Assembly: GCF_900890425.1 (NCBI RefSeq)
Contig: NZ_CAAHFG010000001.1
Coordinates: 2,418,001-2,482,000, forward strand
DNA: 64,000 nucleotides
Origin: Pontiella desulfatans
GTDB taxonomy: Bacteria > Verrucomicrobiota > Kiritimatiellia > Kiritimatiellales > Pontiellaceae
Direction of reading: 5' to 3'
Positions 17,169 through 58,118 of the stretch are shown here, in pieces. The position numbers and the translations under genes were made by a program. The notes below the pieces were generated by a model that saw nothing but the letters and a program-made list of their open reading frames with translations, was not told the origin of the DNA and did not search any database. The stretch's first letter is position 1; every line of letters begins with the position of its first letter.

Positions 17169-17186
17169 ATAGCCTGAAAAGGGTAT
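17169..17186. promoter_or_regulatory. Operator-like palindrome, copy 1
   Basis: ATAGCCTGAAAAGGGTAT on the plus strand, one base away from the perfect palindrome ATACCCTGAAAAGGGTAT found at 38359 and 57979. It is about 80-100 bp upstream of the remnant gene at 16677-17090 and 28 bp beyond the stop of the modular sulfatase at 17214. It could also serve the whole left operon. Confidence 0.65.
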
Positions 17187-17213
17187 TCTCCAGCGAAGGC
17201 TCTTCTCCATCCG

Positions 17214-27825: not shown

Positions 27826-27928
27826 TTCATCTCTCCATTTTTGGTTTTCATACACTGCCGTACTGGCAAACGTTCAACATCCTTTGAACCAGTAGCTAAT
27901 AAAATCCCACTGACCGCGATTTTTGCCA

Positions 27929-27946
27929 ATCGCCTGAAAAGGGTAT
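27929..27946. promoter_or_regulatory. Operator-like palindrome, copy 2
   Basis: ATCGCCTGAAAAGGGTAT, 104 bp upstream of the start at 27825. The neighbouring TTTTTGCC is shared with the copy at 38359, so the similarity extends beyond the palindrome. Confidence 0.75.
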
Positions 27947-27986
27947 TTTGGAGCACTTTTTTGCATCACTGGCGTAGCATGGTGAT

Positions 27987-31000: not shown

Positions 31001-31519
31001 CGTTCCGCTAATCACGCCAATACGGAATTGCTGCGGTGCTGCGGCATCAACCGTAAACGTGAAAACCTCGCTCCAGGTACCTACGCCAGCATTGCCAGCC
31101 ACCGCAGAACCCACCGTTCCCCAGTCCACCACTGAAGCGCTGATGACGGCCGTCGGATCATCCATCGGCCCCTGGCCATAGCCCTGGGCAACACTGCTGA
31201 TATCAGCTCCCTGAGAGAAGGTCGCCCAGCCCGCACCCACCTGGGTATGGTATCCCGCAAAGGGTCGATTGTTAATTTCGGCACCACCGTCGCCGAACAT
31301 CATCAGACCTTCCGTACCATATGCATGGTCTCCATCAATATCGAAGCTCTTCACCACCCCCGTCGAGCGGTAAGCGGTTGCTTCGTTGTCCGCCGCTCCC
31401 GTTCCAAGGATGTCATAGCCGGTTCCGTCCCCGACCGGCGTTATCTCGACTGCGGCATTCGCTGTTAGAGCCATAAGTCCGGCCCCTATAATTGCACATG
31501 TTGTTCGATCAATTTTCAT
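28049..31519 (-). CDS. Modular secreted protein with two tandem GH117-like propellers
   Basis: 1156 residues from the ATG at 31519, which has GGAG seven bases upstream; an ATG two codons earlier is too close to it. After a signal peptide ending ALTANAA come module A (about 20-245), a short Ig-like linker, GH117-like domain 1 (about 355-650, with RRDPSDVIKVGDTWHVWYS, FTPNILFHDGTYYLYY and GGHEVQIWADEDEGIYSM), GH117-like domain 2 (about 655-930, the same landmarks), a beta-linker and an FYRL-type C-terminal domain (about 1086-1156, ending FRIKAVR). The two propellers are clearly a tandem duplication. Unlike typical GH117 enzymes they have GGHEVQIW in place of HEVLVWP. Each may retain activity on anhydro-sugar ends, or one may be a binding domain. 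Confidence 0.88.
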   Translation of the reverse strand: MKIDRTTCAIIGAGLMALTANAAVEITPVGDGTGYDILGTGAADNEATAYRSTGVVKSFDIDGDHAYGTEGLMMFGDGGAEINNRPFAGYHTQVGAGWATFSQGADISSVAQGYGQGPMDDPTAVISASVVDWGTVGSAVAGNAGVGTWSEVFTFTVDAAAPQQFRIGVISGTQGQSNGRWDPTALRISSGGVTNSVAGLENNTTYGAPNWVFFDIDLNGETSATFSIEGAQRLATQGVGLTGITFDVPPGGVLPTIPEIEYFVVAHTETEGLGKAAWSVSNATTVTILDAADQPVGGVSGLKGTVDITYTSGDTFTLVAASNGIVRTESKTITTTTTLDELVSFTFTDSPLTNYTDPAALTRRDPSDVIKVGDTWHVWYSKAAPGVTSGYDASVWHATSTNRGNSWVEQAEAVPRGANTNDWDVTSTFTPNILFHDGTYYLYYTAVGPGFNQGYNEEGKTRIGVSTSGSPYGPWTKYAGNPILIPSADTAKFDSFRVDDTCMAVREGNVWLYYKGRPWGLGSTATKMGVAVATNGVGPFVRQNGGDPVQLGGHEVQIWADEDEGIYSMVNGVGPAVLTYTIQYAPDGLNFTKYADISSSEPGAPGLFRWELTDPSLGCRPDWGVYGTRKIGRYEIDFPVPEVTFSFDAVSGVGPEAGVYRRDPSDIIKVGDTWHVWYSKPEGAANGPATIGHATSTNAGLDWVEQATAISRTTNSWDGGSAFTPNILLHEGTYYLYYTGVNDAYWSTSGYVEDQKFRIGVASSGSPYGPWTKYGGSPILVPSLDTSKFDSFRVDDSCLAVKDGEIWLYHKGRGWGLGPTETKMGVVIADDPLGPFVRQNGGDPVQLGGHEVQIWMDRYEGIYSMIGSVGPAELTHTIQYAADGMDFRFYADVSTSDPSAPGMYRTELTEPGTGEMPAWGMYGVSSLARFAVEYNTTPSTRILLDPGSIAEGNRLGDWIGDLDVASGSGYAFELLPIINTNDFLVGSAELAANTVFDSSVTNLVGLFIRASGASTIDGYFEVDVLDADGLRGWRLDQFGADVLAQTNLESTVWGDDANPDGDAFANIDEYAADTLPQDSNSVLRVESLVLDGSSLDLSWIGGVQATQYIETCSALTSNTVWTVVATNLPPTAISNAWNGTVSAETNAAMFRIKAVR

Positions 31520-31600
31520 TTTCATTCTCCACTTTCCTTATATTCCAATCTTTCCACTTCCAAGTGGCAACAGATGTTTTCATCACCCAGCTTCGCTGGA

Positions 31601-31677: not shown

Positions 31678-34600
31678 TTAATATTTAATGTTTAGTCGGT
31701 AAAAATAGTGTCCGTTCGTATTGGCCTGCCCGGAAAAGCGGTTCGTCGGCGGGGTGGCAACGATTTCCTCGTTGCTGACGGCTACCCATTCGCCGTTCGT
31801 CAGGGACGCGCATCCCTCAAGTATATAGGTGAGTCCGACACGGCTCTCCCACTCCACGTTGAATGTATTGTTCGAAAAAGCCGGATCAAACACAATCTCC
31901 AGATCGTCGGGCGGAAGGACATCGAAGGTGATGCCGGCAATCGCAACGCCCTGATCCGCCAGCCGCTGCTGGGCTTCGATGGCAAAGGTGTCGGCGGTCG
32001 TGCCGTCGGTGGCCACATCGAAAAAGACCATGCCGGCGGTATTGGTGAGGTTTTCAAGATTCGTTGCTTCGGCCGCAACGGCAGCCCCGCCGGCCACCGA
32101 CACGCGGATCCCCGTCGGATCCCAACGGCCGTCGCCGTTTGCTTCGTGTCCCGACATAATGCCCAGCCGGAATCCGGGCGTGGACTGGCCGACCGAGAAC
32201 TTCAGCACCTCAGACCAGGTTCCCGCCCCGCTGTTTTCGGCGGCAACATGTCCCGTGTTGGGCATGTCGGCAACATCGTTGCCCGGAGCCAGCGTGGGAT
32301 CGTCGATTTTGGGATAGGTTGCGAATACCGCTACAGGCGCGCTGCCCAGCGTTGCTCCTTCGGAATAGTTCGTTACCCATGCCGGGAGGCCATCCAGGTT
32401 GACGCTGAAGGCCTGGGCCTCGCCCGTCGTGCTTCCGTCGCCGAAAAACAGAGTTCCCGACGTGCCGTACACGTGATCGCCCAGATCGAAACTTTTGAAG
32501 ATATTCGTGGATCGGAAGCCCTGCGCGGCGGCGCCGGTTTCATTGTAGCCCATGCCATCGCCGACCACATCGACCGTGCTGGAGACCCGCGTCAGGGGAT
32601 AGGCCGTCTCCACGGAGCCTGCGGGACGGCTGTTCGCGGCGATGTCCGCCACGCAACCGCTCATGTATCCTTCGAGCTGCGTCACGATATCGGGATAGGC
32701 TGACGCCACGTCCGTGCTCTCTCCAATGTCCGCCTCTAAATCGTACAGCTTGCCCAGACGCAGCTTCCACTTCCCGGAGCGCACCGCCTGCAGCGTGTTT
32801 ACATCATAATAGAAAAAGGCTTCGTGCGGACTCTCCGCGCCTTCCGTCAAAACCGGCCAGATATCCCGTCCGTCAATCACGCGATCATGCGGCACGTCGG
32901 CTCCGGCAAGACCGGCAAACGTGGGAAGCAGATCCATCGTTGACATCACTTCATCGATCTCCGTATCGGCCGGTATCGCGCCCGGCCAGCGGACGACGGT
33001 CGGCATGCGCATGCCGCCTTCCCAGGTATCACCCTTGTTCCCTCTCAATGGCGTTGCCAATCCAAGCGCCGCCTTGGAGGGGCCGTTGTCCGAGGTGAAG
33101 ATGACCAACGTATTGGCGTCGATCCCCTGCTCCACCAAAGTGTCGAGGATTTGCCCGACCGACCAGTCCACCTCGTTGATCGCGCGATAGTAGAGATCAT
33201 CGCGAATTTCATAGTAGATCGTGTCGTTCTCTTCCTCCGCGGCCAGTGCGTCCAGAATAGACGGCGAGACCCCGTCCAGGAATGGCGGGGAGATGCTGAT
33301 GGGCCGGTGCGGCGCCGGATGCGGGACATACAGGAAAAACGGCTCCTCCCTATGCCGTTCGATAAAGTCGATCGCATGCTCGGTCACCCGCTGCGTCAAA
33401 TAATCCGCATCGGGTTCCAGCTCGATCACCTCGCCACCGTCCAACAGCGGTAGCGGGGAAAATTCATCGCCCCGGTTGGGATGGTAGGGATGAATGTCGT
33501 GGCTGTAGGGAATGCCGAAATATTCCTCAAAGCCCTGCCGGGTTGGCAAAAACTCCGGCTGGTCGCCCAGATGCCACTTGCCGACCATGCCGGTGGCATA
33601 GCCCGCCGATTTCAGCACCTCGGCAATCGTCACTTCGTCCGGGTTCAACCCGCGGGTATCCGCAGTCAGGAACACCCCGTCGGCCATGCCGATGCGCTCG
33701 GGATAACACCCCGTCATCAGCGCTGCGCGGGACGGCGTGCAAATGTTGCCCGCCACATAAAAACTGGTCAGCTTCGCCCCCTCCGCCGCCATTTGGTCGA
33801 TGCGCGGCGTGCTGACGTGCGTTCCGCCGAAACAGCCCAGATCCGCGTACCCCTGATCGTCCGTAAAAATGATGATAAAATTGGGCCGGTTGCTCGTGAC
33901 CCAAATCGACACCGTGGCCGGGGCGCTGTTGGTCTGCCCGTCGTTGACGGTGAATGTGAAGCTGTCCCTTCCCTGATATCCGTTCGCCGGTGAGTAAGTC
34001 CACACATTCGTTGCACCTGAAAGCGTACCGTGGGACGGTTGCATCTGCACGTTATACGTCAGGTTGCTGCCCTCCGGATCGGTGCCGGTCAGCGTAATGT
34101 CCACCGGGGTGTCGGGCAGCGTGCGCACGCTCTGCTCATCCGCGACCGGAGGGTCATCCACCTCCGAACCCGCAAACAGATCAAAGATCACGCCGCTGAT
34201 CGCGGTACCTTGGTCCGCCAACCGGTTTTGACCCTCCAGCGAAAAAGTGCCGCTGGTTTCGCCATTCAGATCCACATCGAAGAACACCCAGCCGGGGGTT
34301 GAGCCGGACGTGTTTTCCAGCCCGGTGATTTCGGCGGCAAGTCCGCCATCTACGGAAAGCCGAAGCCCCGTCGGATCCCATTTTCCGGTCGAATCGCCCT
34401 GGGTGCCCGACATGATGCCGATGCGGAACATTTCAGGTGTTGCGGCATCGATCGAGAAGGTCAACACTTCCGCCCAGTTTCCAACGCCGCCGCCCGTCGC
34501 CACGCCGATCCCGCATATCGTCCAGTCCGCCACATCGCTTCCACTCAGCGTCGGGTCGTCGTAGGGGCCATAATTGGTTTGCTCACTCACCGATCCAAAC

Positions 34601-34893
34601 TGCGCTCCCTGGGCAAAAGTTGCCCAGCCCGCGCCTGATTGCGTGTGGACGGAAAAAGCCTGGTTGTTGGCGGCCGTGGTTCCGGTTCCGAAGAAAAACA
34701 GCCCTTCGGATCCATATTCGTTGTTTCCGTCGGCATCGAAGCCTTTGGCCACGCTCGTTGAACGATAGGCCGTCACCCCGGTTTCGTCGTAGCCCGCGCC
34801 ATCGCCAACCACCGAAATGTCGATGGCCGCGTTCGCCGCAAAGGCCATAAGCCCCGCAATGAATGCTGCATTCTGGATTCGCTTTGATATCAT
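31678..34893 (-). CDS. Large modular S1 sulfatase flanked by two A modules
   Basis: 1071 residues from the ATG at 34893, which starts the signal peptide MISKRIQNAAFIAGLMAFAA. Order: module A (about 20-241), a cadherin-like Ig repeat (about 250-330, with SNLTYNVQMQPSHGTL and a GRDSFTFTVNDGQ stretch), the sulfatase (about 336-768; NFIIIFTDDQGYADLGCFGG, formylglycine motif CTPSR with Cys at about 385, GKWHLGDQP, FTSDNGPS), a second module A (about 768-993), and a C-terminal FYRL domain ending HYFYRLNIKY. The catalytic part is the closest relative of the compact sulfatase at 11387-12859. A module copy on both sides of an enzyme is unusual and suggests bivalent attachment. The substrate is unknown. 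Confidence 0.92.
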   Translation of the reverse strand: MISKRIQNAAFIAGLMAFAANAAIDISVVGDGAGYDETGVTAYRSTSVAKGFDADGNNEYGSEGLFFFGTGTTAANNQAFSVHTQSGAGWATFAQGAQFGSVSEQTNYGPYDDPTLSGSDVADWTICGIGVATGGGVGNWAEVLTFSIDAATPEMFRIGIMSGTQGDSTGKWDPTGLRLSVDGGLAAEITGLENTSGSTPGWVFFDVDLNGETSGTFSLEGQNRLADQGTAISGVIFDLFAGSEVDDPPVADEQSVRTLPDTPVDITLTGTDPEGSNLTYNVQMQPSHGTLSGATNVWTYSPANGYQGRDSFTFTVNDGQTNSAPATVSIWVTSNRPNFIIIFTDDQGYADLGCFGGTHVSTPRIDQMAAEGAKLTSFYVAGNICTPSRAALMTGCYPERIGMADGVFLTADTRGLNPDEVTIAEVLKSAGYATGMVGKWHLGDQPEFLPTRQGFEEYFGIPYSHDIHPYHPNRGDEFSPLPLLDGGEVIELEPDADYLTQRVTEHAIDFIERHREEPFFLYVPHPAPHRPISISPPFLDGVSPSILDALAAEEENDTIYYEIRDDLYYRAINEVDWSVGQILDTLVEQGIDANTLVIFTSDNGPSKAALGLATPLRGNKGDTWEGGMRMPTVVRWPGAIPADTEIDEVMSTMDLLPTFAGLAGADVPHDRVIDGRDIWPVLTEGAESPHEAFFYYDVNTLQAVRSGKWKLRLGKLYDLEADIGESTDVASAYPDIVTQLEGYMSGCVADIAANSRPAGSVETAYPLTRVSSTVDVVGDGMGYNETGAAAQGFRSTNIFKSFDLGDHVYGTSGTLFFGDGSTTGEAQAFSVNLDGLPAWVTNYSEGATLGSAPVAVFATYPKIDDPTLAPGNDVADMPNTGHVAAENSGAGTWSEVLKFSVGQSTPGFRLGIMSGHEANGDGRWDPTGIRVSVAGGAAVAAEATNLENLTNTAGMVFFDVATDGTTADTFAIEAQQRLADQGVAIAGITFDVLPPDDLEIVFDPAFSNNTFNVEWESRVGLTYILEGCASLTNGEWVAVSNEEIVATPPTNRFSGQANTNGHYFYRLNIKY

Positions 34894-34924
34894 TACATCG
34901 TCTCGAACACACAATCACCAAACC

Positions 34925-35980: not shown

Positions 35981-38257
35981 TTATTTGCCGAGCTTGTAGA
36001 ACAGCTGGGATTCGCTGCCGATGGCATTGGTCACCGGCGAAGATACGCCCGTTTCCGAAACGCCCCATTCCCCATAAGCGAGGTTGACATTGGTCAACAC
36101 GTTGTATGCGCGCCCGTCATCCCAGGACATGATGAGCGCCCCGTCGGAAACGGTAACACCACTGATCGGCGGGAGGGCCAGGCCATACACATCGCCATTC
36201 ACGATTACCTTGTCGAACAGGGTGGCTGAACTGAAACCATCGCTTCCGCCGTAGATGTAGAGGCGGAACTCGACCGCTCCATCGAGCTCCTTGAACTCGG
36301 CTGCGGACAGATCGACCACATTGCGGCAGCTGTCGCCGTCCCATGTTTGGATATCGGTCGTCTGCCCCGTCGCGATTTCCGCTCCGTTGGCAAATCCTCC
36401 CACGGACGAGAAGAGCGCCCAGCGCTCCGCTGAGGAGGCCAGCTGGTTGACACGCGAACGGAAGGTGAAGCTGATCAGATCCATCGCATAGCCATTGGTC
36501 GGCGTGACGGTGAAGACCATGTAGTCGGCGTTGGTTATCGCCAGAGGGAGATTGTCGGCGTTGTTCATCAGGGTGTATCCCAATGCGGAGCTTGCGCCGC
36601 CGAACTCAAAACCGTTCGCCGTTCCAAACAGGTTATATTCCGCATCAAGCTCGCTGTAGTAGCTGTTGCCGTTATCCACATTAACAACGCTGACAATGCC
36701 GGTTCCCACGCCAAAACCGCTGGCGGTGACATTGGCGTCCTGGACGGTGACATTCGTCGTGGCCGTGCCCGTTCCATCGTCAAAGTCATAACCAGCGATC
36801 ACGGTGGTGGAGATGGTTGGACTGTAATAGAAAACATCCACCGAACCATTGGCGGTGTTGGTTACGCCGGAACCGGCTTGAGTCCACGTAACGACCACAA
36901 CGGAATCCGCGGTATCCCCATGGTTTACCAGCGCACCGGTGTTGGTGTAGGTGACCAAAATGTCTTCGTCCGTATTGCCCGCACCCAAAACAAAGCTTGC
37001 CGGATCCACACTGAATCCGTTGGTCACCACCACCGAAACAATTTCAATATTGGCCGGGATGGTTCCCTCAATGTACGAGGCAACGATCGTGCCGTTGGTG
37101 CTGGTGTCCGGACTATTCAAGGTCAACGAGAGCGAAGCCGGCGTCAGCTCAAAGCTGTTGGGTTCATTGATATAGGTAACACTTAACGGAACACTGGAGG
37201 TGTTGCTTACACCGGATCCCGCCTCGCTCCAGACAACCACCAGCGTGGAGTTTGTGCTCTCCCCGTTGGCAAGACCAATACCGGTATTATCAAAGGTGAC
37301 CGTGATCTCTTCTTCCGTATCGCTGTTGCCCAGGATGGGATCGGTTATGGAAGCACTAAAGCCGGCACCGGCCAGCGCTGAAACGATGGTGATATCGTTC
37401 GAGGTGACCGCTCCGGCCATGTAGGTCGCCGTGATGGCGCCGTCGACACTCGTGTCGGGGGCATACAAGTCCAGCGAGAGCGAAGCTGGATTCAGCGCAA
37501 GACTTGCGCCGGGAGCGGCAACGACGGTATCAAACGTGATGCCGGCCAGGCTGGGGCCCTGGGTCGCCAGACGTTTCTGCCCTTCGATGGTAAACGTGCC
37601 TGAGGTTTCGCCATTCAAATCGATATCGAAAAAGACCCAGTTCGGAGCACCGTAGGGCGTGTTGTTCTCCAGTCCGGTCACCGCGTTGGTTACACCGCCG
37701 GAACTGATGCGCAAGCCGGTCGGATCCCAGCGTCCATTCGATTGTGCCTGTGTACCCGCAAACAGGCCGATTCGGAATTGTTGGGGGGCGCCGGCATCGA
37801 AGGTAAACGTCACCATTTCACCCCAGGTTCCAGCGCCTCCTGTGGCGGCCGAAACCATGGCACCGACGGTGCCCCAGTCGGCCACATCCGCGCTGATTGC
37901 ATTGGTAGGATTGTCCATCGGCCCCTGGCCATAACCCTGGGCGACACTGATGAAATTAGCTCCCTGGGCAAACGTGGCCCAACCCGCGCCAACCTGGGTG
38001 CGCTTCGTGAAGAGTTGGTTGTTTATTTCAGCCCCCCCATCTCCGAATACCATCAGGCCTTCCGTGCCATAGGCATCGTCTCCATCGACATCAAACGTTT
38101 TGGCTACCCCCGTCGAGCGATACGCATGCGCTTCGTTTCCCGCCCCATTACCGAGCAGGTCATAGCCGGTTCCGTCTCCGACCAAGTCGATTGTAACGGC
38201 TCCGTACGTCGCGGACAGCATGCCCAGCGCCAGAATCATTCCAGTAGTTTTTTTCAT
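35981..38257 (-). CDS. Large secreted adhesin-like protein (module A plus Ig-like repeats)
   Basis: 758 residues with an AGGAGA ribosome binding site and the signal peptide MKKTTGMILALGMLSATYGA. Order: module A (about 20-245, ending RLATQGPSLAGITFD), two Ig-like repeats (GLANGESTNSTLVV and NHGDTADSVVV strands), a beta-sandwich opening VIAGYDFDDGTGTATTN, and a C-terminal domain with AYNVLTNVNLAYGEWGV ending LFYKLGK. No catalytic motif. It is a paralogue of the protein at 25567-27825, but that one has module B where this one has the GYDFDD domain. The same GYDF domain type also occurs in the haem protein at 41653-45321. The operator-like palindrome lies 102 bp upstream. Confidence 0.85.
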   Translation of the reverse strand: MKKTTGMILALGMLSATYGAVTIDLVGDGTGYDLLGNGAGNEAHAYRSTGVAKTFDVDGDDAYGTEGLMVFGDGGAEINNQLFTKRTQVGAGWATFAQGANFISVAQGYGQGPMDNPTNAISADVADWGTVGAMVSAATGGAGTWGEMVTFTFDAGAPQQFRIGLFAGTQAQSNGRWDPTGLRISSGGVTNAVTGLENNTPYGAPNWVFFDIDLNGETSGTFTIEGQKRLATQGPSLAGITFDTVVAAPGASLALNPASLSLDLYAPDTSVDGAITATYMAGAVTSNDITIVSALAGAGFSASITDPILGNSDTEEEITVTFDNTGIGLANGESTNSTLVVVWSEAGSGVSNTSSVPLSVTYINEPNSFELTPASLSLTLNSPDTSTNGTIVASYIEGTIPANIEIVSVVVTNGFSVDPASFVLGAGNTDEDILVTYTNTGALVNHGDTADSVVVVTWTQAGSGVTNTANGSVDVFYYSPTISTTVIAGYDFDDGTGTATTNVTVQDANVTASGFGVGTGIVSVVNVDNGNSYYSELDAEYNLFGTANGFEFGGASSALGYTLMNNADNLPLAITNADYMVFTVTPTNGYAMDLISFTFRSRVNQLASSAERWALFSSVGGFANGAEIATGQTTDIQTWDGDSCRNVVDLSAAEFKELDGAVEFRLYIYGGSDGFSSATLFDKVIVNGDVYGLALPPISGVTVSDGALIMSWDDGRAYNVLTNVNLAYGEWGVSETGVSSPVTNAIGSESQLFYKLGK

Positions 38258-38358: not shown

Positions 38359-38376
38359 ATACCCTGAAAAGGGTAT
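38359..38376. promoter_or_regulatory. Operator-like palindrome, copy 3 (perfect)
   Basis: ATACCCTGAAAAGGGTAT, perfectly symmetric at the outer six bases on each side, 102 bp upstream of the start at 38257 and about 38 bp beyond the stop of the previous gene. It reads as TACCCTT-TT-CAGGGTA in the gene direction. Confidence 0.8.
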
Positions 38377-38413
38377 TATGAGCGTTTTTTTTCGGCCGGT
38401 CGCCATGGCATGG

Positions 38414-41400
38414 CTAGCGATCGGTACGGCGGCCGCGGACGCGGTAGTAGCGCACTTCGGCAGCCGGAGCGTTGGTGGAATAAATATTTTGCGGCGGCGT
38501 GGCCGAGCGGTCCACCACCAGCGGGATCCAGGCGTTGACCGCCAGGTTGGTGGAATATTCCAACGTATATTCGGCGTTGCTTGCGCTTTGCCAGGCAATC
38601 GCCACATCGGTGCCGGAGACCTCCAGCCCTTCGATCACCAGGCAGGAGGCGGCGTTGGTGGGATCGGTTCCGACCCAGTATTCCTCTTCGTTGCTCAAGC
38701 CGTCCATATCCCAATCCCCGTTTCCTGCTTCGGTCGTGCTGGAACCGAAGTGGGCCAGCTCCCAATCGTCGGCCATGCCGTCGCTATCCTGGTCGATCAG
38801 CGAACGCGTATCGAACAGCGTGCTTTCGTAGGCCGCCACGGTACCGTCGGCATTAACAACGAAGACCCGGAAATAAATATCCGCCCCCGGAACCAGCCCG
38901 GTCAATGTTACGGAGAAATCCCCTTCGGACTGCGGCGGCAGATCGGTGCTGTATTGCCACGCTTCAATTTCGTCGCCGCCGTCGTACGAACCCCAGCAGA
39001 CGGTAACGTCCACCACGGAGTTGGAAACGGTGTAGATGACCTCCCCCTGCACGAGGGCGGAAACCCCATCGATGCCATCCACGCCACGGTTGGCGGCCAG
39101 CATCAGCGGCTGGGTGTCGTAGACCTTGAGCCCCTCGGCGATCGCGGTCTGGCTCATTTCTTCAAAGTTGTGGCGATCCGTCCAGGTGGCCTCGTGCCAA
39201 AGGTCCAGTGCCGTTGCCTTGTAGAAGCCCGGCATATCCGCGCGCGGCAGTGCGGCGAGCGCATCCTGCCCGGCCTGAATGATGGCGACGGCCTCGTTGT
39301 AATCAGCGGACCCGACCGTCATGGCATCCAGGCAGGGACTTTTTTCCGGGCGGTCGAAGCAAACCATCGGGCCGGGATTGGTGCTGTGCTTGTAAAAACT
39401 GGCGAGGTTTTTACCCGTCAGCGCATAGAGCCGGGCCACCTGCGCATCGGTGAGCGGTGCGCGCCCGGCCAGGTTGTCGGGATAGTTCGAGCTGAAGTGC
39501 GGATAATACGGTGCGTTCATGTCGAGCCAGGTGGCGATCCGGTCGATATCCTCGGTCGTCATCGAACCGCTGTTGTGTCCGGACAGGATTTTCGTCAGCA
39601 ACGGGCTGTTGTGCGAGCCCCAGCTTTTGGCCTGCTGGATGGCGGCCGGGCCGGCGCCGATGGCTCCGGTATATCCCTTTTTCCACAGCTCCATGTAGGA
39701 GGCATTGAAGAACAGGGTTTTGTCGCCGGCCAGCACCAGCGTACCGGACGCCGATCCGTCGAAATCGTGGCATGGCATGCAGTGCGCATCGAAGACGGGC
39801 TGCACTTCCTGCAGATAGCCGAAATTCCGGGGTTCGCCATACCAGCCGTCGAGCTGGCTCGGCGCGCGCAGGGTGGCCAGCGGCAGCGAGTTGGTGCCGT
39901 AGGCCGCCGGGGCCAAGGTGCGGTCGTCGTGGCAACCGATGCAGCCCTGGGTTTCGTTGGGCTGAATGATCGTTCCCGTGCGCATCGACTGGATCATCCG
40001 CTTGTTTTCATCCAGCAATTGGAAAAAGAGGAATGTGCTCGACGGCGCATTGAAATGGGCCGAGCCGTCTTCCTCGACCGGAACCGTTCCGAGAATCTTT
40101 TTATTCTGGAAGTTGTGCCAGTTCATGCCCGGCGATGTGCGGCCCTGGGCGCCCCACTGCTTATCCCAAACAAAATCGGTTTTGTTGGGGGCTTCGATCA
40201 CACGAAGATATTTCACCTCGCCGCGTTCAACGCCCTCCATGTGCGTTCCTTCGTAGACATCCTGTATATAGAAGCGGCCATCGGCCCCGTTGTTCTTGCG
40301 GTGGATTGCAACATCGTGCGGCATGGCGCGCGGGGCGAGCGGCATCGGGTCGAAGCACCCCCAAACCCCGGTGCCTTCGCTGTAGAGCAGGGCTGAATCC
40401 CCTTCCGTATCCAGCAGGTAAAGACCCATGTGCGAACTGCCGCCGGTGATTTCGCGCGAGCAGAGGAAATAGCGACCGCCCACCCCGGAGTCGGGATCAA
40501 GGAGCGGCCAGGGATCTTCGTGCCGGATGGACGTGTTCTTGAAGCGGTCGAAATCCTGTCCGTCCACTTTCACCCAGCTCTCCAGTCCCGCCGGCCAGGT
40601 GCGTACCACCGGGTCGCGCCCATCAACCCCCTTGCGGCGGTCAATGAGGGCAATGGCACCCCACGGCACGTCGTGGCAGGAACTGAAGGTGCAAACGATG
40701 TACGGCGTTCCGGGAATCATCTGCCCGTCGAGCACGCCACCGGGGCTCGTCGTGTTGTTGCCGTACATGATGGCATGGCCGGTGCCGTCGGGTTCGCAGA
40801 CCCACAACCCCTGTGCATCGCCAAAGTTGCGGTCCACATATTCCCAGCGCGAATACATGATGCGCCCGTCGGGCATCAGGCTCGGATGGTCTTCGAACAG
40901 GGTGCTGCGTGCAATCTGTTGGATGTTGGCGCCATCGGCATCCATCTTGTGGAGATTGGCCGAAATGTGGCGGTTGCAGCCGATATATTTGATTTCGCGC
41001 GTCGAGGTGAAAACAATATCGCCATCGGGCATGTAGATCGGATCCAAATCGTCGGCATCCTGAATGAACGTCAGCTGTTTCAGCCCCGAACCGTCGGCGT
41101 TGATTTCATAGATGTGGTAGCTGTCGGCGAGATCCTGGCGCATGGAGAAGACAATCTTTTCGCCGCTGAAGTGGACGTCGGGATCGCGGATCATGCCTTC
41201 GGAGGTTTCGAGCAGCGTGGTGACCGCGCCGGTGACGGGATCAAAAACCTTGAGCGCCCCGGCGGCCCTGTAGCTTCCGGTGTTGTATTCATTCGGGCAG
41301 GAAGGAAAGAACGTGGCGGTGTTGTGGTGATCCCGGTCATATTGCTTCCGCGCAATGAACAGGATCGGCTGGTTGGTCACGCAGGCAGGCAGCTCAGCAA

Positions 41401-41503
41401 AGAGATCCCCCGCAAGGCATCCCGCCGCAACCGCTAAAATTAGTGCCATCCTTCTGCACTTCAAACCAGTGTGCAGTTCAAAACCAACCCTGCTTTTCGC
41501 CAT
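38414..41503 (-). CDS. Large secreted c-type haem protein with PD40-type propeller
   Basis: 1029 residues if started at the ATG at 41503, which gives a signal peptide (hydrophobic core LILAVAAGCLAGDLFA). Starts at 41629 or 41638 are possible but place that core after residue 55, behind repeat-encoded sequence. Order: a TolB/PD40 beta-propeller (about 35-515), CIGCH (about 521) and CMPCH (about 576) c-type haem sites, an alpha-helical cytochrome part, a fibronectin-like domain (about 815-895), an acidic DQDSDGMADDWE calcium-binding-type segment, and a FYRL-like C-terminal domain ending RYYRVRGRRTDR. The layout recalls hydrazine-synthase-alpha-like PVC proteins of unknown function. It is co-directional with and 149 bp downstream of another haem protein. 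A redox role outside the cytoplasm is inferred. Confidence 0.78.
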   Translation of the reverse strand: MAKSRVGFELHTGLKCRRMALILAVAAGCLAGDLFAELPACVTNQPILFIARKQYDRDHHNTATFFPSCPNEYNTGSYRAAGALKVFDPVTGAVTTLLETSEGMIRDPDVHFSGEKIVFSMRQDLADSYHIYEINADGSGLKQLTFIQDADDLDPIYMPDGDIVFTSTREIKYIGCNRHISANLHKMDADGANIQQIARSTLFEDHPSLMPDGRIMYSRWEYVDRNFGDAQGLWVCEPDGTGHAIMYGNNTTSPGGVLDGQMIPGTPYIVCTFSSCHDVPWGAIALIDRRKGVDGRDPVVRTWPAGLESWVKVDGQDFDRFKNTSIRHEDPWPLLDPDSGVGGRYFLCSREITGGSSHMGLYLLDTEGDSALLYSEGTGVWGCFDPMPLAPRAMPHDVAIHRKNNGADGRFYIQDVYEGTHMEGVERGEVKYLRVIEAPNKTDFVWDKQWGAQGRTSPGMNWHNFQNKKILGTVPVEEDGSAHFNAPSSTFLFFQLLDENKRMIQSMRTGTIIQPNETQGCIGCHDDRTLAPAAYGTNSLPLATLRAPSQLDGWYGEPRNFGYLQEVQPVFDAHCMPCHDFDGSASGTLVLAGDKTLFFNASYMELWKKGYTGAIGAGPAAIQQAKSWGSHNSPLLTKILSGHNSGSMTTEDIDRIATWLDMNAPYYPHFSSNYPDNLAGRAPLTDAQVARLYALTGKNLASFYKHSTNPGPMVCFDRPEKSPCLDAMTVGSADYNEAVAIIQAGQDALAALPRADMPGFYKATALDLWHEATWTDRHNFEEMSQTAIAEGLKVYDTQPLMLAANRGVDGIDGVSALVQGEVIYTVSNSVVDVTVCWGSYDGGDEIEAWQYSTDLPPQSEGDFSVTLTGLVPGADIYFRVFVVNADGTVAAYESTLFDTRSLIDQDSDGMADDWELAHFGSSTTEAGNGDWDMDGLSNEEEYWVGTDPTNAASCLVIEGLEVSGTDVAIAWQSASNAEYTLEYSTNLAVNAWIPLVVDRSATPPQNIYSTNAPAAEVRYYRVRGRRTDR

Positions 41504-41518
41504 GCGACAGAAGATGTT

Positions 41519-41587
41519 GACCGCGAAGACGCTAAGAAACGAAGATTCAGAATCCTGATTGCCTTGCGTCTTAGCGTCTTTGCGGTC
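41519..41587. repeat. Dispersed inverted repeat at a gene start
   Basis: GACCGCGAAGACGCTAAG and its near-complement CTTAGCGTCTTTGCGGTC are separated by 33 bases. It is of the same class as 12779-12840. It lies between two co-directional genes and blurs the true start of the downstream one. Confidence 0.7.
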
Positions 41588-41652
41588 ATTTCCTATGCTG
41601 TGAAACCGCGTTAGAAATTTTGTTTTCATAACATCCATCTTTTTTAAATCCG

Positions 41653-44600
41653 TTAAAGCGACTTTATGTATTCCACGAGGTCGTCGATCTGGGTTTCGGT
41701 CAATCCCGCCGTGCTTCCATGCGAAAAGACCTCGAGCACGTCGCGAATCGTTTGCGCGCGGCCGTCGTGCAGATAGGGCCCGGTGCGCCAGACCTCGATC
41801 AGGCTCGGCGTGTCGAACGGCCCCGCATCGATGGTCGTTCCCGTTCCAACATCGTGCAGCTCCTGGTCGGTTAAATAGTCGCCGCTGTGGCAACCGGTGC
41901 AACGGGCGTTAAAGATCGTCTCCCCCCGAACCGCCGCCGCGCTCAATCCGCCATCCACCAGATACGGGCTGGGCACGGGTTGCTGCGCCTTGAGGAATGC
42001 GTCGAGATAGAGGTCTTCATTGTTTTTCCATTTGATCATATGGCTGAACATGATGCCGGCCCGGACCGATGTCTCGGCGTTCGGGCGCACCCCCGTCCAG
42101 GTGGTCGGCGCCGTGTAGTGGGCCTGCAACAGGCTCTTGGCGTTTTTGGCATTGCCGAAGCCGTCGTTGAGCAAGTCCCAGTTGAGTCCGTCGTTGCGGC
42201 CGCCGGGATGGCAGCTGGTGCAGCTCTGCCACTGCTGGGCGGAAAGCGTGGCATCGTGGAACAGTTGCATCCCGAGCCGGACATCCGTCTGGGGCATCAC
42301 CCAGCCGATTTCGATCTCCTGCGCGGCATATTCCTGCCCGTCCGCCAGATCGGCAACGGAAAGCGAATCGCTGAAATAGTTCGCGGCATAGACCGTTGTT
42401 CCAACCACCGCCACGTCGCGCGGGCCGTTGCCCGGCAGCGGCAGGCGGCGGCGCAGTCCCGCCAGATAGGAAAGATCGTCGCAAACGTTTTTGGTGGCGG
42501 AGGAGAGCTTGGCCAGCAGCCCCGGCCAGTCGACCGCGCTCAGCTCGTGGGTTCCTGCGTGCGCAATGCAGAGCGTTCCGCCATCGGCCGTGAAGCCCGT
42601 CCCCCACGGGTTGGCGGCGCCCAGATCGAGGTCGTCGAGCTCCACCGTGTTGTAGAGCGTGTCGGACGCGAGGTCGATGATGCTCAAGGTGGAGGTATTC
42701 ACCCAACCGCGGAAAATCTGGTTGGCCGGAACGCGGTAGCGCCCGAGCGCATGGGCCACGACGGCATAGCCACCGTCCGGCGAAACCGCCACATCCCGCA
42801 GGCTGTGCGAGCCCGGCGGCAACACGATGCTGGCCGTAACCAGTCCGCTCGCCGTATCGATCACGCTGACGGAGGCCGCCACGCCGGTTTGGGTGGAGGG
42901 CTGGTGCGGAAGCAGATTGCCGACCACCAGCTTGGAGCCGTCGGGCGTGAGCGCCGCGTCGAACGGCTCGCGCAGCACGCCGATCCGATCCGCAACACTG
43001 CCCGTGGTGAGATCGACCACGGCAACGGTATTGAGGAACCGTTCGCAAATATAGAGGCGATTGCCGGTCGCCAGTACCGGAGAGCGCGGAGTATGGCCGA
43101 CCGGAATGGTTTGGGTCACCTGCATCGAGGCCGTATCGACCACATAGACCGCCCCATCGGAAACCCCGGCGGTGACGTAGAGCGTGGCTCCGTCCGACGA
43201 GAGTGCCAGGCCGGAAGGATGCTGCGGCAGATCAATCGAGCCCAGCCGCGTATTATTCGCCAGATCAACCACCCCGACACGGGCCGCAGTGGACTCAGCG
43301 ATATAGAGCAGGCCGTTGACGGCATCGGCCGCCAGCTCGGTCGGCGAAAGATAGAAATCGCGGTCATCCGAAAAGATTACGCCCCGGGCTGTTCCGCTTT
43401 CGATAACCGCACCCTCCGCCGAATCGATGGCGAAATAGAAATCCTCGTCGCCTTCGTCGAGCGCATCGCCCCAGATCGTGATGGCAATCTGCATTTGCGT
43501 TTCGCCCGGGAGGAAGGTCAGTGTATCGCCTTGGGCCTCATAGTCAGCCGAGCCGGCCAGCCCGTCCGCCGTGGAAAAGGTAAAAGAAATCGCTTCCGGA
43601 TAGGCGCGGGAAAGCCAAACCCTGAAGACGGCCAGCGATGATCCCGAATCGCCCTCAACCATCTGGGCAGGATCCACCGATATGCGCGGATAGGAGGGCG
43701 TGAAGCTTTGGAGGCCCGACCAGACGGTGCCATATTGGTTCGACGCGGCGCAGCGGTAGACATATTCCGTGTCCGTCGTCAGGTTGTCCACCTGCACCGA
43801 AAAATCGCCGGGGGAAAGCATGCCGAGATCGGCATTATGCGCCCACGCGCCCACGTTCGTACCGCCATCGGTTTCGCCCCAATAGGCCCAGACCTGCGTC
43901 GATGCGGCGCCTGTGCTGACGAGGGTACCGGTCAACGTTGCGGCGTCGGCAAGCAGGTTGGAAACACCGCTCAGGTTATCAACACCTGGAGGAACTCCTG
44001 CAATGGCGCGGCCATACAGCGTGATTTTATCGAGCGCCGCCAACGTGCTGGATGTCGAGGTCGTCCCCCGGCCCCAGGCATAGATGCGGAATTGCGTGGC
44101 CTCGGTCATGGTTTCCAACGCCGTGCCGGACAGATCCACCACCACCCCATCGTAGGTTCCCGTCAGGCCGACCACGTTGGTGATGATGACCGAACTGCCA
44201 ATCAGGTTGCCAGAAGCATCGGTCACAGCATATTCATCCACCGAATCCACATGTTTCTTGGTGACCTTAAAGGTGATGCTGGAAAGCTGAAATACGGCTC
44301 CAGCATCAGGAGTGACGGTGAACGAAATGTAATCATTTCCGGCAACCGCATCCTCGAAGCTCCCCGTAACGGCATCATCCACACCGATACCGACGCATCC
44401 GACCGTACCCGTGCCGCCAAAGGCCGAACCGGCGGCATCCTCCCCGGAGTTATCGCCGACCGTCGAGACGAAGGCGATGGCCATCGGAGACGTCAGCGGG
44501 CTAGCCGTCATATTGGCGGCAACCACCGTTGCATCACTCATATCCGCCGCATCGGAGTTAAAATCATAGCCAACCAGCATTCCCGCTGCGGCTTCCGGAT

Positions 44601-45321
44601 TCACGTCAAAGGTCACGCCGCTGATCGCGGTCCCCTGGCCCGCCAACCGGTTTTGCCCTTCGAGCGAAAAGGTTCCGGAGGTTTCGCCATTCAGGTCCAC
44701 ATCGAAAAAGGCCCATCCGGAAGTATTGTCGGGCGTATTCGGCAAACCGGTGATTTCGGCGGGGGCACCGCCGTCAACCGAAAGGCGGAGCCCGGTCGGA
44801 TCCCACCGGCCATCACTGCTGGTTGTTTGCGTGCCGGACATGATGCCAACTCGGAACTGCTGTGGCGTAGTGCTGTCGATGGTGAAAGTCAGCACCTCCG
44901 CCCAAGCCCCAACACCGCTACCCAGTGCTACGCCAATCCCGGCGAGGGCCCAATCGGCCACATCCGTCCCGCTCAGAGTGGGGTCGTCATAGGGGCCGTA
45001 GGCCGCCTGTTCACTAACGGAGCTAAACTGCGCCCCTTGCGCAAAGGTTGCCCACTCCGCGCCCGTCTGCGTGTGCTCCGACCAGCCAAGGCCATTCCCG
45101 GCACCCGCATTGTTTCCAAAAAAAAAGGTTCCGGCGCTACCGTATTCATCATTTCCGTCGGCATCGAACGATTTGCCGACACTCGTTGAGCGGAAGGCCA
45201 CCAAACCGGTTTCTTCATAGCCGGATCCATCGCCGACGACCGTAATATTGATTGCGGCGTTCGCAGCGCAGCCCATTAACCCGGCACAGATCGCCGCACG
45301 CTGCAGTTGTTTCAGTCTCAT
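41653..45321 (-). CDS. Large secreted YVTN-propeller cytochrome c peroxidase-like protein
   Basis: 1222 residues from the ATG at 45321, which has GAGGTGG upstream and starts a signal peptide ending GCAANAA. Order: module A (about 20-245), a GYDFNSDAADM-type beta-sandwich (about 245-445), a fibronectin-like domain (about 447-543), a Calx-beta-like domain (about 545-650; MVEGDSGSSLAVFRVWLS), a YVTN seven-bladed propeller (about 657-993; GALYVTAG-like repeats and VVDLTTGSV), and a di-haem cytochrome part (about 1010-1222) with CTSCH (about 1032) and CTGCH (about 1140), GPFDTPSLIEVWRTGPYLHD being typical of MauG/CcpA-type proteins. It ends after a helix with no FYRL domain. The operator-like palindrome lies 116 bp upstream. 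Confidence 0.85.
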   Translation of the reverse strand: MRLKQLQRAAICAGLMGCAANAAINITVVGDGSGYEETGLVAFRSTSVGKSFDADGNDEYGSAGTFFFGNNAGAGNGLGWSEHTQTGAEWATFAQGAQFSSVSEQAAYGPYDDPTLSGTDVADWALAGIGVALGSGVGAWAEVLTFTIDSTTPQQFRVGIMSGTQTTSSDGRWDPTGLRLSVDGGAPAEITGLPNTPDNTSGWAFFDVDLNGETSGTFSLEGQNRLAGQGTAISGVTFDVNPEAAAGMLVGYDFNSDAADMSDATVVAANMTASPLTSPMAIAFVSTVGDNSGEDAAGSAFGGTGTVGCVGIGVDDAVTGSFEDAVAGNDYISFTVTPDAGAVFQLSSITFKVTKKHVDSVDEYAVTDASGNLIGSSVIITNVVGLTGTYDGVVVDLSGTALETMTEATQFRIYAWGRGTTSTSSTLAALDKITLYGRAIAGVPPGVDNLSGVSNLLADAATLTGTLVSTGAASTQVWAYWGETDGGTNVGAWAHNADLGMLSPGDFSVQVDNLTTDTEYVYRCAASNQYGTVWSGLQSFTPSYPRISVDPAQMVEGDSGSSLAVFRVWLSRAYPEAISFTFSTADGLAGSADYEAQGDTLTFLPGETQMQIAITIWGDALDEGDEDFYFAIDSAEGAVIESGTARGVIFSDDRDFYLSPTELAADAVNGLLYIAESTAARVGVVDLANNTRLGSIDLPQHPSGLALSSDGATLYVTAGVSDGAVYVVDTASMQVTQTIPVGHTPRSPVLATGNRLYICERFLNTVAVVDLTTGSVADRIGVLREPFDAALTPDGSKLVVGNLLPHQPSTQTGVAASVSVIDTASGLVTASIVLPPGSHSLRDVAVSPDGGYAVVAHALGRYRVPANQIFRGWVNTSTLSIIDLASDTLYNTVELDDLDLGAANPWGTGFTADGGTLCIAHAGTHELSAVDWPGLLAKLSSATKNVCDDLSYLAGLRRRLPLPGNGPRDVAVVGTTVYAANYFSDSLSVADLADGQEYAAQEIEIGWVMPQTDVRLGMQLFHDATLSAQQWQSCTSCHPGGRNDGLNWDLLNDGFGNAKNAKSLLQAHYTAPTTWTGVRPNAETSVRAGIMFSHMIKWKNNEDLYLDAFLKAQQPVPSPYLVDGGLSAAAVRGETIFNARCTGCHSGDYLTDQELHDVGTGTTIDAGPFDTPSLIEVWRTGPYLHDGRAQTIRDVLEVFSHGSTAGLTETQIDDLVEYIKSL

Positions 45322-45436: not shown

Positions 45437-45454
45437 ATCGCCGGAAAAGGGTAT
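45437..45454. promoter_or_regulatory. Operator-like palindrome, copy 4 (degenerate)
   Basis: ATCGCCGGAAAAGGGTAT, 116 bp upstream of the start at 45321. It keeps the GGGTAT half-site and the AT-x-CC edge, and it is the least symmetric of the five. Confidence 0.6.
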
Positions 45455-45604
45455 TTTGCCCCTTTTTTCCAAAGGCCGCGCCTTGTGCCATGAAAGTATA
45501 AAGCCATGTCGCTTTCACCTCGGAGACCCTGGCGCGGCACAATCGCAACCAAATTATCACAACCACTGATGATTCACACCAAAGCGGCTTCGCAGCAGAA
45601 AAAA

Positions 45605-47523: not shown

Positions 47524-48555
47524 TTATCCAAACATCAGCTTTTCATCAAAATCCTTTCCGTTCATTACATGCCACATCGCCTTGGCCAACTTGCAGGCCA
47601 GCGCTTTTTTCGCCTTAGGCACGCCGCTCGTTCTTTTTTTACGTTCGTACCAGGCGTGGATGCGCGGGTTGAAGCGCGCGGCATAGGTTGCGGCCTCAAC
47701 GAATGCCCATGCGAGATAACGGTTGCCGTTCTTCGCGTTGTTTTTACCCTTCTTTTTTCCGTTCGAACTGCATTCACTTTTTACCGCCCGGCAGTAGGAG
47801 GCGTAGTCGCCCGCGCTTTTGAAGCGGCTGAAATCCCCGCTCTCAAGGGCGACAAGCATTCCCAGCGCAACCCCGATTCCCGGAACCTGCTGCGCCCGTC
47901 GGTATTGCTTTGTCGGTTTTGCGACTGCCAGCACCTGCTGCTCGACCTTTTTCGCCAGGCGATCCGACTCACGGATGGCTTCAAGCAGGGTTTCGAGCTG
48001 AAGCTGAACGAATTCGTCGAGTCCGGTGGCCTGAATATCTTTTAATGTCCACTGTTCCAACTTGCGCGCACCCGGTGCATCCAGGCCATAGCGTTCGAGC
48101 AGGCCGCCGAAGCTCAGCAGCACCTGTGTCCGACGGCGCACGAACAGCTGTCTTCTGCGCAATGCATCGCGTACGGGGCGTGTTTCCTTCGGATAGATGT
48201 AGCTTTCCGGAAAGATACCCAGCCGGAGCTGCTCGGCCAGCCAGTCCGCATCCGTCAGATCGTTAGTGATCTTGATCCCCTTGTACTGCTCCATCTTCGC
48301 CGGGTTGCCCAGCTTTACATTACGGTCTTTCTCGCGAAGTCCATCGACGAACCAGTACCAGTTAAAGGTCGATTCCACGCCCAGCGCCACGATCCGATCC
48401 CAGAACGGGTCGAGCGCAGCATTGACGGCCGCAAGGTTCGCTTTCACGCGTTTGCGGAACACCGTGTTCCCCTCCTGATCACAAAGGGAGAGGAAAACAT
48501 TGTTTCCATGCAGGTCGGCACCTGCGTATAGTGCATTTGCTTTGGTCGTTTGCAT
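47524..48555 (-). CDS. IS110-family transposase
   Basis: 343 residues. The N-terminal DEDD RuvC-like nuclease part (about 8-170) starts ALYAGADLHGNNVFLSL, where the Asp of GADLHG is the first catalytic acid; EST follows at about 61. The C-terminal transposase_20 part contains QVPGIGVALGMLVALE, FKSAGDYASYCRAV and a KNGNRYLAWAFVEAA stretch, carrying the conserved Ser-containing tyrosine-recombinase-like region. Length and domain order are complete, so it may be active. It moves DNA by an RNA-guided mechanism in studied relatives. It is intact, unlike the neighbouring first IS1595 copy, and it interrupts the region directly after the MltR-like gene. Confidence 0.93.
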   Translation of the reverse strand: MQTTKANALYAGADLHGNNVFLSLCDQEGNTVFRKRVKANLAAVNAALDPFWDRIVALGVESTFNWYWFVDGLREKDRNVKLGNPAKMEQYKGIKITNDLTDADWLAEQLRLGIFPESYIYPKETRPVRDALRRRQLFVRRRTQVLLSFGGLLERYGLDAPGARKLEQWTLKDIQATGLDEFVQLQLETLLEAIRESDRLAKKVEQQVLAVAKPTKQYRRAQQVPGIGVALGMLVALESGDFSRFKSAGDYASYCRAVKSECSSNGKKKGKNNAKNGNRYLAWAFVEAATYAARFNPRIHAWYERKKRTSGVPKAKKALACKLAKAMWHVMNGKDFDEKLMFG

Positions 48556-50027: not shown

Positions 50028-51050
50028 TAGGGGTATCCCCTTCGCTGGACTCGGTACTACATCTTGTGTTTTGGCTTTCTCCCTCTAACCGAAAGAGCGA
50101 TTTCATTATATCCTGTATGACCCACTACGACGGCATTCTGCAACAGGCGGAAGAACAGCAAACCACGGGATCGAGACTTACGACGGTTGAAGCGAAAGGT
50201 GTATTCGTCGAGATAGTAGCCCAGATGCTCATGGCTGACAGCTCCTTGATGCGTTCCGCCCAACCATCGTTTGATCAAGCTTGCTTCCCGGTGGCACAAG
50301 GGCAGCAAATTGTCTCCAACATCCGCAGTCTTACGAATCACTTTGTGTTCATATCCCAAACCCTTCACTCCATTATAGCCCGCCCATCCATCTGTTTTAA
50401 TCAATGTCCCCGGCTCGACGGTTTCCTTTATCGCCGCCTCAAGGCTATCTGACGACGCATCCGCTATTCGCCGAAGACGGATCCGCCCGGTAGCCTTTCC
50501 CTTCTCCTGCGCAATGATCAGAACCAATGCCTTGCCTTCCGCCCCGCGCCCTCTTTTGCCTGGCTTTACCCCGCCAATGAAGGTTTCATCCACTTGAACG
50601 GTTCCCGTCAGCCTATCTTGCCCCGGTCTTACCATTGCCCGCCGCAACTTATGAAGCCACGTCCAGGCCGTTTCGTAGCTTCCCAGCCCGAGTATGCGTT
50701 TCAGGCCCAAGGCGCTGGCACCGTTCTTCTGGCCAGCTACCCACCAAATCATACGGAACCATGTGACCAGCGGTTTGCGAGTTCCCTCGAATACCGTACA
50801 GGCGATTACCGATGTCTTCCGGCTGCAATTCCTGCATTTAAACAACCCGTTCGTCAGCACCCAAACATCTGAGCCACCGCAGACCGGGCACCTGAACCCA
50901 TCCGGCCAGCGCAGCTCAAACAAGAATTTCCGACAAGCCTCTTCCGTTGAAAAATTCACCTCCAATTCTTCGAGATTCTTGGGATATGTCTCCATTCATG
51001 GATAGATACCACAACATATGGGGGCTAGTCCAGCGAAGGGGATACCCCTA
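50028..51050 (-). mobile_element. IS1595-family element B, 1023 bp, intact
   Basis: The inverted ends begin TAGGGGTATCCCCTTCGC and match perfectly over 24 bases. TTTTAAAA stands on both sides. It lies in the same orientation as element A. Confidence 0.92.
50057..50995 (-). CDS. IS1595-family transposase, intact
   Basis: 312 residues. An N-terminal zinc ribbon (about 30-60; FRCPVCGG ... CRNCSRK) precedes an ISXO2-like DDE domain with VQVDETFIGGVKPGKRGRG (first catalytic Asp in VDET), LIKTDGWAGYNG (second Asp) and SHEHLGYYLDEYTFRFNRRK (the final acidic/Asn region). It is complete and starts METYPKNLEELEV. It can probably mobilise itself and, because the ends of element A are alike but not identical, perhaps element A in trans. 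Terminal repeats lie 29 bp and 55 bp outside the gene. Confidence 0.94.
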   Translation of the reverse strand: METYPKNLEELEVNFSTEEACRKFLFELRWPDGFRCPVCGGSDVWVLTNGLFKCRNCSRKTSVIACTVFEGTRKPLVTWFRMIWWVAGQKNGASALGLKRILGLGSYETAWTWLHKLRRAMVRPGQDRLTGTVQVDETFIGGVKPGKRGRGAEGKALVLIIAQEKGKATGRIRLRRIADASSDSLEAAIKETVEPGTLIKTDGWAGYNGVKGLGYEHKVIRKTADVGDNLLPLCHREASLIKRWLGGTHQGAVSHEHLGYYLDEYTFRFNRRKSRSRGLLFFRLLQNAVVVGHTGYNEIALSVRGRKPKHKM

Positions 51051-57858: not shown

Positions 57859-57978
57859 TTTCCATCTCCTTATTTTGTTTTGGTCTTCCCCTCGTTCTCC
57901 ATGGTTGCCCGCCAAGTAGCTCGGCGACACCTGATTCCACGGAATGACAAAGTTTGACACGGCACCGAAAATGCGTCC

Positions 57979-57996
57979 ATACCCTGAAAAGGGTAT
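57979..57996. promoter_or_regulatory. Operator-like palindrome, copy 5 (perfect), divergent promoter
   Basis: ATACCCTGAAAAGGGTAT. It lies 121 bp from the start of the minus-strand gene at 57858 and 123 bp from the start of the response-regulator gene at 58119, almost exactly in the middle. This placement suggests joint control of the surface protein and the regulator itself. Confidence 0.82.
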
Positions 57997-58118
57997 ATTC
58001 CACAACTTTCCACTCTTTGTGAGAGTGTCATGGCAACGAATGGTGCGGGTGAGGAAAGCAACACCTGCCATCTCCACCCTTGACATCCGCACACCCATCC
58101 CCCTTAAAATGACCCACT

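Follow-up and report, generated by a model that had tools for sequence, protein, structure and literature searches.

Hydrazine synthase (HZS) has long been held to be unique to anammox bacteria, and to our knowledge no function has been assigned to its relatives outside that group. Here, we describe an HZS-like gene pair within a sulfated-glycan cluster of Pontiella desulfatans, an anaerobe that degrades seaweed sugars, in a stretch of 64,000 nucleotides (the window; G000:C1:2418001-2482000) of its 8,658,305-bp genome. In the HZS of Kuenenia stuttgartiensis (5C2V), alpha combines a propeller with an HZS_alpha domain and two c-type haems, beta is a propeller, gamma is a di-haem domain, and haems alpha-II and gamma-II are bis-His ligated. 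The window pair shares all of these features, but it lacks Tyr591, Cys303, gamma-Cys165, gamma-His144, and gamma-Asp168, its beta and gamma parts are fused, it carries extra N-terminal modules, and its host lives by fermentation and degrades glycans.

Non-anammox HZS-like alpha/beta-gamma pairs that have lost key HZS residues were described in four clades, I-IV, by Hagglund et al. 2025 (PMC12758564), and a 2023 paper (PMC10732223) proposed a broader HZS-like family acting on other substrates. The window pair resembles the former in having neighbouring alpha and fused beta-gamma genes and in not conserving the key HZS residues. It differs from them in its gene order, with beta-gamma ahead of alpha as in anammox bacteria, in retaining alpha-II His772, and in carrying additional surface-type N-terminal modules. 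Its two alpha haems and the absence of N-terminal haem repeats argue against placement in clades I-III. MauG and bacterial cytochrome c peroxidase (CCP; PF03150) have the same gamma domain family, two CxxCH motifs, and a Trp at the equivalent position; in the window, by contrast, gamma is fused to a propeller, has His at the gamma-II distal position, and is paired with an HZS-alpha protein. Planctomycete-specific cytochromes (PSCyt; PMC5615132) are likewise c-type haem proteins of unassigned role near sulfatases in bacteria of the Planctomycetes-Verrucomicrobia-Chlamydiae (PVC) group, and some carry carbohydrate-binding domains, although their protein families differ from those of the window pair. 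The main text of PMC12758564 mentions neither Kiritimatiell- nor sulfatase, and in the literature searched nothing joined hydrazine synthase with Kiritimatiell-, and only a hadal metagenome paper joined it with sulfatase. HZS-like pairs are therefore already known as a kind, while their glycan-regulon setting appears to be new and unreported in the literature searched. An initial annotation, made from the window's sequence alone, had held that a redox step or electron disposal would be new for such a cluster; with PSCyt and the non-anammox pairs published, that claim has to be qualified.

The genes, modules, and haem motifs of the pair are listed below by position in the window.

41653-45321, minus strand: HZS beta-gamma-like fusion protein, 1222 aa, matching 5C2V_B, 5C2V_C, and hydrazine_BC; from N to C terminus, signal peptide, module A, linker, Fn3/Calx-beta region, 7-bladed propeller (beta), and di-haem MauG-like domain (gamma)
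44572-45321, minus strand: signal peptide and module A of beta-gamma, a weakly CBM35/CBM32-like jelly roll
41653-43347, minus strand: beta-gamma core, 564 aa (alignment of 24; identity to the window protein 43-84%)
42208-42222, minus strand: haem gamma-I motif CTSCH; C/C/H kept in 100/100 aligned sequences
41887-41901, minus strand: haem gamma-II motif CTGCH; C/C/H kept in 100/100 aligned sequences
38414-41638, minus strand: HZS-alpha-like protein (PF18582, 5C2V_A profile match, and predicted fold), with a TolB-like propeller and two c-haem sites
39929-39943, minus strand: haem alpha-I motif CIGCH, inside the HZS_alpha domain; kept in 43/43 alpha sequences
39767-39781, minus strand: haem alpha-II motif CMPCH; kept in 43/43 alpha sequences
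41455-41612, minus strand: in-frame insertion in the region of the alpha signal peptide, with a palindromic repeat of ~70 bp that resembles a repetitive extragenic palindrome; the orthologue lacks this insertion

Since the orthologue L045 also begins MRLKQ, the beta-gamma start at ATG 45321 is supported. The first ATG of alpha (41638) lies 14 bp past the beta-gamma stop on the same strand, and its stop is at 38414; alpha is 1011-1074 aa long, depending on the start used, with the effective start possibly near 41464/41449. The initial annotation had placed both genes correctly and fairly called them giant, but it overlooked that they are a single HZS-like alpha/beta-gamma pair. By their layout, the two genes are one operon for an HZS-type alpha and fused beta-gamma, with four predicted c-type haems per pair.

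Over its length, the beta-gamma core aligned end-to-end with the beta (5C2V_B, E 4e-25) and gamma (5C2V_C, E 2e-20) chains of Kuenenia HZS. Its best NCBIfam family was the HZS beta-gamma fusion hydrazine_BC (132 bits), ahead of MbnH and MauG. Alpha matched PF18582 (HZS_alpha, E 6e-32) and the 5C2V_A profile (E 2.7e-46), and its predicted fold (pLDDT 79) was closest to 5C2V_D (Z 33.6 over 564 residues, 2.9 A), with TolB second (Z 26). The 5C2V chains were the best solved relatives for alpha and gamma and near-best for beta, whose propeller alone scored higher with the YVTN surface-layer propeller 1L0Q. The YVTN propeller (TIGR02276, E 1.3e-19) and MauG-like tail of the initial annotation both held up, the gamma domain falling within the MauG/CCP superfamily (PF03150, E 5e-13, 50.4 bits against a gathering score of 25.6) and below the cut-off for MauG proper (TIGR03791, 48.4 against 443.85 bits). 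Its PD40 propeller was right in kind, being TolB/PD40-like (TIGR02800, E 2.6e-8), but Pfam PD40 itself did not match the window alpha and matched just 4 of 43 alpha relatives. From the HZS homology of alpha, beta, and gamma, we infer that the two haem proteins are two halves of one HZS-type complex. This identity is the most informative fact about both proteins.

As the initial annotation had it, each protein contains exactly two CxxCH motifs, and their conservation marks them as more than chance occurrences. The bis-His ligation of alpha-II (His772) and gamma-II (His332) in HZS is kept in the window pair. The alpha-II distal ligand is H625 (1011-aa numbering; 42/43 sequences), which the profile alignment puts on HZS His772, while one MAFFT run, shifted by one, set Asn626 at that column. 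A His at the His332 column is present in the window and in 88/100 sequences. The other positions that define HZS are not kept: no Tyr follows CIGCHDDRT where HZS has the alpha-I ligand Tyr591; the zinc-site residue Cys303, absent in Scalinduaceae too (PMC12758564), is Asn in the window alpha; gamma Cys165 falls in a gap in the window and is missing in 100/100 sequences; gamma Asp168 is Phe; and gamma His144 is Trp, as in 17/100 sequences in all. PMC12758564 equates this Trp position with the catalytic Trp of MauG/CCP. The alpha family has conserved residues of its own, Cys158 (42/43), Arg201 and Tyr204 (both 43/43), and His259 (38/43), at positions not so occupied by HZS in the alignment. Because the HZS-defining residues are replaced, the chemistry of the window pair should differ from that of HZS.

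Haem loading of the pair is likely, since the genome encodes a cytochrome c assembly gene (PF01578) and the pair of one relative adjoins AhbA/B and AhbC haem-synthesis genes. That relative's cluster (L136:9154-13950) comprises a siroheme-dependent haem pathway with AhbC, fused AhbA/B, and fused HemA/CysG, and genes related to this pathway also lie near L090, L094, and L113. In HZS, the relay haems have potentials near -330 mV (PMC12607021), which, if conserved in the window pair, would suit low-potential chemistry.

We took a common operator together with a conserved neighbourhood as the mark of a sulfated-glycan regulon, and the pair has both. The operator was picked up by a repeat search of the window, where 6 matches (0.25 expected) occur when up to 3 mismatches are allowed, including 5 with no more than 2. 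The following copies, neighbours, and candidate regulator are relevant here.

45441-45458, minus strand: operator copy CAAAATACCCTTTTCCGG, about 120 bp ahead of the beta-gamma start
38363-38380, minus strand: operator copy, perfect inverted repeat ATACCC-TTTTCA-GGGTAT, upstream of the module A gene 35981-38257
27933-27950, minus strand: operator copy upstream of the module A gene 25567-27855
17173-17190, minus strand: operator copy about 700 bp upstream of the sulfatase 15117-16472
57983-58000, minus strand: operator copy upstream of, or within the 5' part of, the open reading frame (ORF) 55681-58098
31678-34914, minus strand: sulfatase (PF00884, E 7e-62) with module A at both ends
28049-31525, minus strand: GH43/GH32-like protein with module A
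58119-60823, plus strand: LuxR-type response regulator and histidine kinase, a candidate regulator, with orthologues (82% and 65%) beside an operator in G120

Genome-wide, 8 operator sites at up to 1 mismatch occur in 8.66 Mb, all on one strand within 305 kb, and those beyond the window stand ahead of genes that include a sulfatase and a fucosidase-sulfatase pair. At two sites the operator forms a perfect 7-2-7 inverted repeat, and such repeats are typical of NarL-type regulators. Three histidine kinase/LuxR regulator pairs lie among the operator sites of this regional regulon (G000:C1:2170821-2475999). The beta-gamma orthologues of two other species are likewise preceded by the operator, making three Pontiellaceae in all, and in both of these genomes several copies share a contig with beta-gamma. 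Among 28 genus genomes, a 19-bp form of the operator is present in 3, exactly those with a window-type beta-gamma.

The pair also sits in a conserved island, made up with it of genes for sulfatases, GH43, ThuA, and DUF6786, that recurs in two further species. In one of them, G114, identities to the window proteins are 77% for ThuA, 74-86% for five sulfatases, with an orthologue of the module A sulfatase in that range, 83% for DUF6786, and 82% for GH43; those for alpha and the beta-gamma core are 86% and 84%. Across the island genomes, the most highly conserved proteins include alpha (86-88%) and the beta-gamma core (84%).

Module A occurs in 7 copies in the 8.66-Mb genome (E 1e-10), each of them located within about 18 kb of this cluster: twice in the sulfatase and once each in the GH43-like protein, a PEP-CTERM-type protein, two other secreted proteins, and beta-gamma. 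The beta-gamma copy is closest to the N-terminal copy of the sulfatase 31678-34914 (73% identity). It shares only 48% identity with the module A of the beta-gamma orthologue, although the cores of the two proteins are 84% identical; module A has therefore probably been exchanged between genes within the cluster. Membership of the pair in a sulfated-glycan utilisation regulon is well supported by the operator, the cluster-private module A, the operon layout, and the island conserved in two further species. In this respect, the initial annotation, which had assigned the first protein to the regulon from its module A and operator copy, was borne out.

We then considered how widely such pairs occur. 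A scan for beta-gamma in one genome per species, across 84,980 species, gave at least 502 relatives, and the best 79 loci, which span Kiritimatiellota, Verrucomicrobiota, Planctomycetota, Hydrogenedentota, and others, were taken further. Of 288 genomes of the window's class, 92 contained beta-gamma and 100 HZS_alpha, with both in 88, beta-gamma alone in 4, alpha alone in 12, and neither in 184 (raw counts that ignore kinship). In 78 of the 79 loci there was any hit, and 76 near-full-core beta-gamma ORFs were counted, some loci having several. Genes in these loci were called by greedy longest ORF, which missed some beta-gamma, so that the counts for neighbours, gene order, and extensions are approximate. 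By these calls, the nearest alpha lay upstream on the same strand for 35 of the 76 ORFs, downstream for 12, and on the opposite strand for 2, with none in the flank for 27. In the window genome itself there are 11 HZS_alpha domains, and all three of its beta-gamma genes have an alpha gene no more than a few kilobases away.

A quick tree of 97 rows, from which L044-L047 were omitted as the same contigs as L064-L067, placed the window in a clade of nine (SH-aLRT 99) with two Pontiellaceae, L066, L067, two Akkermansiaceae metagenome-assembled genomes, L070, and G227; HZS itself sat on a very long branch, and its placement is unsure. In 8 of the 9 clade rows alpha lies directly downstream of beta-gamma on the same strand, and the ninth contig ends first. 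Every member has a long N-terminal extension, which reached at least 200 aa in 7 of 7 named loci of the clade, compared with 2 of 69 beta-gamma ORFs elsewhere. In the window it consists of module A and Calx-beta; among six named clade members scanned, it contained Laminin_G_3 in three (L068, L069, and L070) and Calx-beta in five. The lectin-type domains in this extension suggest that it aims the enzyme at glycan, and the jelly-roll matches of module A are a lead only.

Anaerobic breakdown of sulfated polysaccharides is usually described as hydrolysis alone. We propose that the window pair is probably a secreted, glycan-targeted tetrahaem HZS-like complex that acts as a redox accessory and is co-regulated with sulfated-glycan hydrolysis. 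Under this model, fused beta-gamma and alpha would be exported, co-expressed with the cluster, and assembled as a secreted HZS-like complex, which module A may tether to glycan, the cell surface, or partner enzymes. Haems gamma-I and alpha-I would be the reactive sites, with gamma-II (and alpha-II) as bis-His low-potential relays, and the complex would most likely assist the breakdown of sulfated glycans as a redox accessory. Pontiella has c-type cytochromes and menaquinone (PMC7356697), and the conservation of every haem site, together with a cytochrome c assembly gene, makes a redox role plausible. If so, a redox step would be added to anaerobic sulfated-polysaccharide breakdown. A bolder version, which we regard as unlikely, is that anaerobic PVC bacteria have turned the HZS fold into an oxygen-independent enzyme for oxidising, or reductively removing, a substituent of sulfated glycans or a small product of these. 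This would provide a haem-based anaerobic counterpart to the oxygen-dependent oxidative enzymes of aerobic degraders and make anammox HZS one branch of a larger family tied to organic-matter breakdown. Since the genus includes cultured members, an HZS relative controlled by a defined glycan regulon also offers a concrete growth condition for expression, purification, and assay.

Several other roles were weighed against this proposal. That the pair is a true hydrazine synthase or another nitrogen-cycle enzyme is extremely improbable. HZS subunits are its best or near-best solved relatives and best NCBIfam families, but the scores are far under the NCBIfam cut-offs (49.9 of 800 bits for alpha and 132 of 1250 bits for beta-gamma), and Tyr591, Cys303, Cys165, His144, and Asp168 are all missing, so hydrazine synthesis was rejected; judged by its family scores and residues, the window pair is not a hydrazine synthase. 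The same verdict has been published for the wider family (PMC12758564). A search for PF13447 (hydroxylamine oxidoreductase/hydrazine dehydrogenase) found no match in the window genome, but none in any control genome either. We consider it quite unlikely that the complex instead delivers electrons from fermentation or menaquinol to extracellular acceptors such as metals, humics, or anthraquinone-2,6-disulfonate (AQDS), leaving the glycan itself untouched. Its predicted secretion and low-potential-type bis-His sites would fit such electron disposal, as would the biology of Pontiella, which encodes periplasmic or extracellular c-type cytochromes, and reduces AQDS, metals, and sulfur (PMC7356697). 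However, Kiritimatiella does such reduction too without c-type cytochrome genes (PMC7356697), the pair has four haems only, no porin or multihaem partner was seen in the window, and the conserved pocket residues at alpha-I and gamma-I suggest catalysis over mere relay.

Detoxification of peroxide or nitric oxide by a MauG/CCP-like gamma-I, shielding oxygen-sensitive cells at the glycan surface, seems about as improbable as electron disposal. In CCP and MauG the ligand equivalent to the gamma-II distal one is Met or Tyr, whereas here it is His, as in HZS, and detoxification would leave the alpha subunit and the glycan-cluster membership unexplained. The above-cut-off PF03150 match speaks for it, as does the window Trp at the position of the catalytic Trp of MauG/CCP (per PMC12758564), although most relatives lack this residue. 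Finally, the pair could be a passenger, an old HZS-like operon in the island by chance that gained its surface module by gene conversion and has no glycan role. Modules do appear to be freely shuffled, given the closer match of module A to the neighbouring sulfatase than to its own orthologue, and the 5' end of alpha is disrupted in the window strain. Since alpha and the beta-gamma core rank with the best conserved island proteins and three species keep the operator, we consider a passenger decidedly improbable.

Our proposal of a glycan-targeted redox accessory should nevertheless be interpreted with caution, as several observations weigh against it. The insertion divides the original start codon of alpha from its signal peptide, and a good start codon context is wanting, so export of alpha may be impaired in the window strain. 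The model of module A is poor (pLDDT 59, best Z 8.4), and the gamma-II distal His is missing in three of the nine clade members. The three island-bearing genomes are kin, so the co-occurrence of operator and beta-gamma represents one lineage rather than three events. Strain F1 has 521 sulfatases (PMC6388578), and proximity by itself therefore means little. Beyond the island, only 14 of the 79 best related loci have sulfatases in their flank, so the wider family for the most part shows no tie to these enzymes.

Mobile and repetitive elements were seen around the operon. IS110- and IS1595-type transposase genes lie at 47524-48555 and 50057-50995 of the window, inside the cluster and just upstream of the beta-gamma operon. 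The palindromic repeat has many partial copies genome-wide, and another adjoins the alpha genes of the second pair in the same genome (C1:4332988).

Among the related loci, the commonest extra neighbour was a Rid/L-PSP (FkbO-like) protein, found near beta-gamma in 21 of 75 (e.g., L091:11765-12886), an indication that some family members may carry out imine or enamine chemistry; it was not among the protein families found in the window. A C-terminal domain with the FGE-sulfatase fold is fused to alpha in 16 of 43 alpha relatives. Formylglycine-generating enzyme (FGE) uses paired catalytic cysteines. Formylglycine maturation of sulfatases was rejected as a role, as the RGGSW region (15/43) lacks such a pair and the window alpha lacks the FGE-sulfatase domain. 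In the third pair of the window genome, L049 (G000:C1:1842000-1861900), alpha has an N-terminal extension of ~900 aa, and the protein next to it combines a Laminin_G domain with four CBM35 and CBM6 matches.

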